From Polynucleobacter sp. AP-Kaivos-20-H2 (GTDB lineage Bacteria > Pseudomonadota > Gammaproteobacteria > Burkholderiales > Burkholderiaceae), in the NCBI RefSeq assembly GCF_018882215.1, contig NZ_JACVOX010000003.1, positions 62,001-126,000 on the forward strand: a stretch of 64,000 nucleotides of DNA, given 5' to 3'. The translations under genes were made by a program, and so were the position numbers. The notes under the pieces were generated by a model. That model ran no database searches and was not told the DNA's origin. It worked only from the letters and a program-made list of their open reading frames with translations. This document shows, piece by piece, positions 62,841 to 64,000 of this stretch; position 1 is the stretch's first letter, and each line of letters opens with the position of its first letter.

Positions 62841-62863
62841 GCAGCTTAAGCTAATTAAGCTGC
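62841..62863. terminator. Hairpin between SCO and rpoH
   Basis: GCAGCTTAA pairs with TTAAGCTGC around a five-base GCTAA loop. The right arm overlaps the rpoH stop codon. The plus-strand side has no clear T-tract, and on the minus strand a T-run (aaacttttta) follows, so it fits better as an rpoH terminator. It may serve both. Confidence 0.5.
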
Positions 62864-63778
62864 TTGCAACAGGCCGCGCATCTTTTTGAGAGCAGCCGTT
62901 TCAATTTGGCGAACACGTTCTGCTGAGATGCCATATTCATCGGCTAGGTCATGCAGTGTTTTAGTGCCATTGCCTTCGGCATCCATAGCTAGCCAACGAG
63001 ATTGCACAATATTGCGACTACGCTCATCTAAAGCCATCAGTGCTTGGTCTAGTTTGGGACCTTGCAAGGCATCTGCTTCGGCGCTGGCAATGCGAGCAGT
63101 AGGCTCTTGTGAGTTATCCGCCAACCATTGAATAGGGGCGTAAGCAGATTCATCATCGCTGTCATCACCTTCTAAAGCGACATCACCACCAGCAAGGCGC
63201 ATTTCCATTTCTTTAACATCAGAACCTTTGACATCCAGTGCTTTAGCCAAGGCTTCAACTTCACTAGGTGTAAGTGCACTTAATGTAGGTTTATTGCTAC
63301 GTAAGTTAAAGAATAATTTGCGTTGTGCTTTAGTAGTTGCGGTTTTTACTAAGCGCCAATTCTTGAGAATGTACTCGTGAATCTCTGCTTTGATCCAGTG
63401 GATTGCATACGACACTAAACGTGCACCATTATTTGGGTCATAGCGTTTAACGGCTTTCATCAAGCCAATATTGCCTTCTTGAATTAAGTCAGCATGCGGG
63501 ATTCCATAGCCAAGATATTGGCGAGCAACAGAAACTACTAAGCGTAAATGAGAGAGCACTAAGGTTTTAGCGGCATCGACATTTTCAGTACGACGAAATT
63601 CCTGCGCAAGATGTAACTCTTCTGCAGCACTAAGCATTGGCACGCGATTAACGTACGAAATGTATGAATCGAGAGTGCCAACCCCAAGTGTTGGCAGCAT
63701 CGGAAATGCAGACGCCGACGCAGTCTGCGCGACTGGCAGCGTTTGCAAATTCGGATTGTCGGATTTCTTTTGAACCAT
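62855..63778 (-). CDS. rpoH: RNA polymerase heat-shock sigma factor (sigma-32)
   Basis: Sigma-32 directs transcription of chaperones and proteases. The 307-residue protein shows region 2 in LVLSHLRLVVSVARQYLGYGIPHADLIQEGNIGLMKAVKRYDP, the promoter-melting VSYAIHWIKAEIHEYILKNW, the RpoH box QRKLFFNLR near residue 155, and region 4.2 DLADEYGISAERVRQIETAALKKM. It is about 20 residues longer than E. coli RpoH, mostly an N-terminal Ala/Pro-rich segment. It follows ftsY, and a CIRCE operator lies 36 bases upstream. No strong ribosome site is seen, so translation control is possible. Confidence 0.96.
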   Translation of the reverse strand: MVQKKSDNPNLQTLPVAQTASASAFPMLPTLGVGTLDSYISYVNRVPMLSAAEELHLAQEFRRTENVDAAKTLVLSHLRLVVSVARQYLGYGIPHADLIQEGNIGLMKAVKRYDPNNGARLVSYAIHWIKAEIHEYILKNWRLVKTATTKAQRKLFFNLRSNKPTLSALTPSEVEALAKALDVKGSDVKEMEMRLAGGDVALEGDDSDDESAYAPIQWLADNSQEPTARIASAEADALQGPKLDQALMALDERSRNIVQSRWLAMDAEGNGTKTLHDLADEYGISAERVRQIETAALKKMRGLLQAA

Positions 63779-63799: not shown

Positions 63800-63829
63800 A
63801 ATAGAGATCCATTTTAGCACTCTTGTCAA
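63800..63829 (-). promoter_or_regulatory. Candidate sigma-70 promoter of rpoH
   Basis: On the minus strand a perfect TTGACA (63824-63829) is followed after 18 bases by TCTATT (63800-63805), or after 17 by CTCTAT. The -35 box falls within the spacer of the CIRCE operator. Transcription would start about 63792-63794, giving a leader of roughly 15 bases before the ATG. Confidence 0.6.
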
Positions 63830-63840
63830 GAGAGTGCTAA
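63814..63840 (-). promoter_or_regulatory. CIRCE operator (HrcA site) upstream of rpoH
   Basis: TTAGCACTC (63814-63822), nine bases, then GAGTGCTAA (63832-63840): an exact match to the CIRCE consensus TTAGCACTC-N9-GAGTGCTAA bound by the repressor HrcA. It sits between the ftsY stop and the rpoH start, overlapping the -35 box, so bound HrcA would block transcription of rpoH. The hrcA gene itself is not in the window. Confidence 0.93.
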
Positions 63841-63868: not shown

Positions 63869-64000
63869 TTAATTGAACAATTCAGATGAATATTGCCCTG
63901 CTGTGAAGGGGGCTAAATCTTCAATCCCTTCGCCCTTACCTAGGGCTAGGACAGCGGGTTTCGGGTCATCTTGTAGGGTGTGGGCTAGAGCGCAGATCAC
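63869..64000 (-). CDS. ftsY: Signal recognition particle receptor FtsY, C-terminal fragment
   Basis: The frame is open to the window end, giving the last 43 residues. They read LALGKGEGIEDLAPFTAGQY with a terminal SSELFN, matching the closing GxGExxxDLxPF motif of FtsY, the SRP receptor GTPase that docks nascent membrane proteins. The upstream GTPase domain is outside the window. An ftsY-rpoH neighbourhood is also known in gammaproteobacteria (ftsYEX-rpoH), which supports the call. Confidence 0.82.
   Translation of the reverse strand: MICALAHTLQDDPKPAVLALGKGEGIEDLAPFTAGQYSSELFN

Follow-up and report, generated by a model that had tools for sequence, protein, structure and literature searches.

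A CIRCE operator that overlaps the predicted promoter of the heat-shock sigma factor gene rpoH in Polynucleobacter and in most of its relatives

The heat-shock sigma factor gene rpoH of Polynucleobacter sp. AP-Kaivos-20-H2 is preceded by a perfect CIRCE, the operator of the repressor HrcA. Comparison with related genomes suggests that this operator and the rpoH promoter are, very probably, one and the same piece of DNA and that HrcA represses rpoH. Such a gating of rpoH by HrcA, already proposed in a sequence-only reading of this DNA, is well supported by inference, because the genome carries hrcA and because the arrangement is kept in most of the relatives sampled across the order and is usually gone where hrcA is gone.

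The window, i.e. the whole stretch of 64,000 nucleotides that was analysed, contains a single CIRCE match with up to three mismatches (shuffle mean 0.05). In a motif scan of these 64 kb, this match fits the HrcA/CIRCE operator pattern TTAGCACTC-N9-GAGTGCTAA, a 9-9-9 palindrome, with mismatches at 0 of 18 positions, as the sequence-only reading had stated. It sits upstream of a heat-shock gene, in the 90-bp gap that separates rpoH (start at 63778) from ftsY (stop at 63869), two genes of the minus strand, and overlaps a conserved extended -10 of the predicted promoter. The features of the region are listed in Table 1. At the other end of rpoH, a terminator-like stem is found on the minus strand (62841-62863; within chance), and the convergent gene beyond it reads as SCO1/SenC-like, with no family match over cut-off.

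Table 1. Features at the rpoH locus, in window coordinates
Feature	Position	Strand	Remarks
rpoH, heat-shock sigma factor sigma-32, 307 aa	62855..63778	-	PRK06596 and TIGR02392 (rpoH_proteo), both above cut-off
Extended -10, TGCTAAAAT, fused to right CIRCE arm	63811..63819	-	TG 63819-63818, hexamer 63816-63811; conservation and promoter scan
CIRCE operator	63814..63840	-	perfect palindrome; in rpoH direction TTAGCACTC-TCTTGACAA-GAGTGCTAA; kept upstream of relatives' rpoH
TTGACA in CIRCE spacer	63824..63829	-	window's genus only
Possible weak -35, TTAGCA, from left CIRCE arm	63835..63840	-	18 nt before -10; promoter scan
End of ftsY, co-directional upstream neighbour	63869..64000	-	TIGR00064 over cut-off; gene runs past the window

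The genome, which measures 2.27 Mb and has a completeness rating of 100%, carries one hrcA gene, an open frame at C7:281591-282583 that scores 298 bits against a cut-off of 197. It contains two CIRCEs with at most one mismatch, the one at rpoH and one, with one mismatch, upstream of groES, this gene being identified by reading the ORF downstream of the site; two further matches have three mismatches. The genome-wide scan found no CIRCE with up to three mismatches before hrcA. From the sites with at most one mismatch, the predicted HrcA regulon of this genome consists of groESL and rpoH. Among the 120 genomes sampled in the family, 88 carry two sites with up to two mismatches, 15 carry three or four, seven carry one and ten carry none.

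The conservation of the rpoH site was examined in 256 genomes, 117 from the family (120 sampled) and 139 from the other families of the order (146 sampled); the stretch read in each comprised the start of the rpoH match (90 bases) and the 500 bases before it. Three family genomes were dropped, as G003 and G027 matched only as well as other sigma factors do and G005 not at all; outside the family, G125, G149, G163, G242 and G243 had no RpoH-level match, and G199 and G251 were cut by a contig edge. Within these 500 bases, 107 of the 117 family genomes carry a CIRCE with up to two mismatches, and so do 118 of the 139 from other families; 43 of the 48 families include at least one genome that carries it. 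The reversed motif, used as a control over the same stretches, never fell below five mismatches. Outside the order, at the class level, a CIRCE with up to two mismatches was found at 24 of the best 29 loci from 65 non-own genomes; three of these 29 have more than four mismatches, and T30 (see below) is kept in 24 of the remaining 26. The order and the class presumably correspond to Beta- and Gammaproteobacteria, with which the titles of the records from a scan of public genomes are consistent.

The presence of the site mostly follows that of its predicted regulator. With up to four mismatches allowed, 229 of the 256 genomes have both site and hrcA, 21 have neither, three have the site only and three hrcA only (250 concordant); with up to two mismatches, the figures are 222, 21, three and ten (243 concordant). 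In these counts, the G202 remnant with stops, which is below cut-off, was taken as an absent hrcA, and the contig-end fragments of G057 and G239 as present. For the counts with up to four mismatches, the Fisher p is ~1e-24. Since this p-value ignores shared ancestry, the safer number is that of the six groups in which genomes that lost both stand beside genomes that keep both (g8, g11, g21, f4, f25 and f34); the loser of f34 retains a remnant with five mismatches. The three genomes with a site and without hrcA are G170 and G260, both drafts 84% complete, and G028, which keeps a site with two mismatches in a genus where three other members lost both. Conversely, hrcA is found without an rpoH site in G008 and G029, which belong to one genus, and in G019, whose RpoH is divergent. 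The genus of G008 and G029 (loci L157 and L154) keeps hrcA, has no CIRCE at rpoH and gives no RpoE match. In a member of the window's genus, hrcA (G094:C1:359664-360587) has an internal TGA while its rpoH CIRCE is intact, which reflects either a recent loss or a sequencing error.

Beyond CIRCE itself, the 232 aligned rpoH sites share one strongly conserved feature, A29 and T30, found together in 207 of them. With three bases downstream, the right arm forms an extended -10, TGCTAANAT, whose T30 is kept in 230 of the 232 sites although it lies outside CIRCE. The only sigma-70-like match between 62700 and 64000 is TTAGCA-18-TAAAAT with TG, drawn from both CIRCE arms (63840-63811); one match compares with a shuffle mean of 2.3, and the promoter assignment rests on the conservation of the -10 because the scan taken by itself is not beyond chance. 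In 49 of the 232 sites, G replaces A at position 3 of the left arm, which brings it closer to TTGACA, and T25 of the -10, its mirror position, is invariant; in total, arm mismatches number 90 on the left versus 32 on the right. In eight hand-picked remnants from genomes without hrcA, the left arm is more mismatched in six, less in one and equally in one, a comparison that is illustrative and biased, as seven of them were anchored on the -10 (the eight are G028 and seven of the 24 site-less genomes with an extended -10 match, and the homology of the -10 match of G171 is doubtful). T30 is missing at 12 of the 13 groESL CIRCEs identified among 34 loci, a set of low diversity with seven from one genus and four from another, and these CIRCEs follow, by eye, a sigma-32-like promoter. 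The groESL site of the window's own genome (L002) is the same operator with one mismatch, but it is not the -10: it lies after a sigma-32-like promoter, CTTGAAA ... TATATAAT (by eye). As judged from these alignments, the rpoH promoter that is conserved among relatives is the operator itself, with its extended -10 in the right arm, and rpoH transcription would start around 63804. The overlap of operator and promoter claimed by the sequence-only reading is retained, with its promoter element moved from TTGACA to the right arm.

TTGACA is indeed present in the spacer (63829-63824, minus strand), where the sequence-only reading took it for the -35. Of the 232 sites, the 11 from the window's genus all have it and the 221 others all lack it; it may be an addition specific to this genus. 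It was rejected as a general conserved -35, being restricted to the genus and lacking a matching -10 while TGCTAANAT is conserved instead. A promoter of this kind in the window's genus, with a -10 some 17-18 nt downstream (CTCTAT or TCTATT) and a -35 blocked by HrcA, would draw on a perfect hexamer kept in 11 of 11 genomes and on a downstream CTAYT-like stretch that, by eye, is largely kept in the genus. It is nevertheless unlikely, as the consensus scan found no sigma-70 -10 hexamer (at least four of six positions, with A at position 2) 16-18 nt downstream of TTGACA, and as the other sites lack TTGACA while nearly all have TGCTAANAT. An autoregulation by sigma-32 through CTTGACA was also discarded, since no CCCCAT-like -10 was seen by eye at the usual spacing.

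Two further explanations would deprive the site of its role as a DNA operator of rpoH. CIRCE has been reported to affect stability in other mRNAs, and the palindrome, terminator-like on the plus strand (two such structures in the region versus a shuffle mean of 1.3), could act in the rpoH mRNA as a hairpin governing stability or termination. However, a transcript driven by a -10 within the right arm would start downstream of CIRCE, the terminator score concerns the strand opposite rpoH, and an RNA hairpin would not require that the site be mostly lost with hrcA, all of which makes this explanation highly improbable. There is equally little to be said for a decorative relic at rpoH in bacteria whose HrcA works at groESL: the site is missing from three genomes that bear hrcA, but 100 of the 117 family genomes have both arms perfect at all 18 positions despite variable spacers and flanks, and alignments of relatives' sites likewise show constant arms between differing spacers and flanks. 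Control of rpoH by HrcA binding to its promoter remains the preferred reading.

In many relatives, the rpoH CIRCE is accompanied by another element. Among 107 family sites, 72 have GGAACTT with up to one mismatch within the 40 bases before CIRCE, versus a shuffle mean of 4.1 and 10 for the reversed motif; in the other families, 84 of 125 sites have it, versus 5.3 and 4, respectively. When 73 family sequences are aligned on GGAACTT (60-nt search range), TCTAA follows 16 bases later, directly before CIRCE, with letters kept at 56-82%. Of the 78 sites of other families with this -35 close by, 44 show a distance of 16 bases, and 18 one of 17, from GGAACTT to the left-arm TC; the continuation TNA into the spacer is found in 51 of these 78 sites versus 14 of the 47 without GGAACTT (p 2e-4). 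This arrangement of GGAACTT and TCTAA or TCTNA resembles the consensus of sigma-E promoters. Overall, the sigma-E-like GGAACTT precedes the rpoH CIRCE or lies within it in around two thirds of relatives' sites (L036-L291, L321-L439), and TCTNA often follows at 16 bases; the window's genus has neither this element nor an RpoE over cut-off. In one genome without hrcA (G232, L223), a different palindrome, AGGCACT-N9-AGTGCCT, lies upstream of rpoH after a GAACTT element.

The sigma-E/CIRCE composite occurs at no fewer than 119 places in public genomes, and among the 119 listed, 116 have an rpoH-like gene on the same strand within 500 bases, as called by a tblastn search in which RpoH of the window served as query (median identity 52%, minimum 37%); in the other three, the sequence ends within 187 bases. 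Among the matches listed are records of Nitrosospira, Sulfuritalea, Halothiobacillus, Methylomonas, Dyella, Haliea and Sedimenticola. The window itself has no GGAACTT with up to one mismatch in the 60 nt upstream of CIRCE, and its genome has no RpoE over cut-off (best match 26.7 bits versus 236), so that both parts of a sigma-E-dependent rpoH promoter are missing. In the family, 70 genomes have both RpoE and the element (up to one mismatch, 40 nt before CIRCE), two the element only, 16 RpoE only and 19 neither (p 1e-9); a stricter definition that includes the -10 gives 65, one, 23 and 28 for the 117 genomes. In the other families, the corresponding numbers are 81, three, 36 and five, and the association is not significant (p 0.11). 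Five genomes show the element without RpoE: G051, whose RpoE match contains a TGA; G086, whose element is weak (gcaactt); G155, whose RpoE is split over contig ends; and the drafts G151 and G238, 92% and 86% complete. It is slightly more likely than not that, in Betaproteobacteria and many Gammaproteobacteria, rpoH is controlled by a single composite of 45-60 bases, which serves at once as HrcA operator, vegetative extended -10 and sigma-E promoter and integrates three signals. This would be an ancestral design of the class, reduced in opposite ways, by loss of HrcA in Escherichia coli and of sigma-E in the window's genus.

The two classical heat-shock circuits of bacteria, one repressed by HrcA and the other activated by sigma-32, are usually described side by side. 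A 2003 study by Permina and Gelfand, which by its title concerns beta-proteobacteria, may already name rpoH among the targets of HrcA. A literature search that covered few subscription papers found no data on transcription start, binding or mutants for the rpoH site, no description of a fused -10 or of a sigma-E/CIRCE composite, and one statement of a CIRCE at rpoH, a prediction for Geobacter. In E. coli, the P3 promoter of rpoH is a sigma-E promoter, and the GGAACTT elements of relatives suggest a similar sigma-E drive of rpoH; the window's genome, with neither an RpoE over cut-off nor a GGAACTT element, differs from E. coli in this respect. According to PMC545781, E. coli has no HrcA/CIRCE regulon. 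In the same source, a perfect CIRCE is predicted at -51 upstream of rpoH in Geobacter sulfurreducens, which also has a CIRCE at groESL, and the window's genome resembles it in both respects, its own perfect CIRCE lying shortly upstream of rpoH. Among the species in the table of PMC545781, G. sulfurreducens is the only one listed with an rpoH CIRCE, and the passages on this site do not describe the promoter; this species also has a CIRCE at hrcA-grpE-dnaK-dnaJ, whereas in the window's genome none precedes hrcA.

Taken together, the regulation of rpoH could be pictured as follows. In other bacteria, it is established that HrcA is inactivated when unfolded proteins occupy GroEL. By analogy, HrcA bound to CIRCE would cover the extended -10 (TGCTAAAAT) and hold rpoH transcription at a low level. 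With GroEL engaged by unfolded proteins, HrcA would become inactive, the promoter would open and sigma-32 would rise. The groESL operon would then be induced by two routes at once, the release of its own CIRCE and its sigma-32-like promoter (by eye), and HrcA, sigma-32 and groESL would form a feed-forward loop closed by GroEL. We infer the binding of HrcA, the repression and the dependence on GroEL at rpoH from this analogy.

If this is true, the HrcA circuit would feed the sigma-32 circuit through a site that is kept over most of the order and is also found beyond it, and a repressor linked to GroEL would set the level of the sigma factor in these bacteria. The joint losses of site and hrcA would offer ready natural experiments. 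If the composite reading is also true, chaperone load (through HrcA), envelope stress (through sigma-E) and the housekeeping polymerase would meet at a single site.
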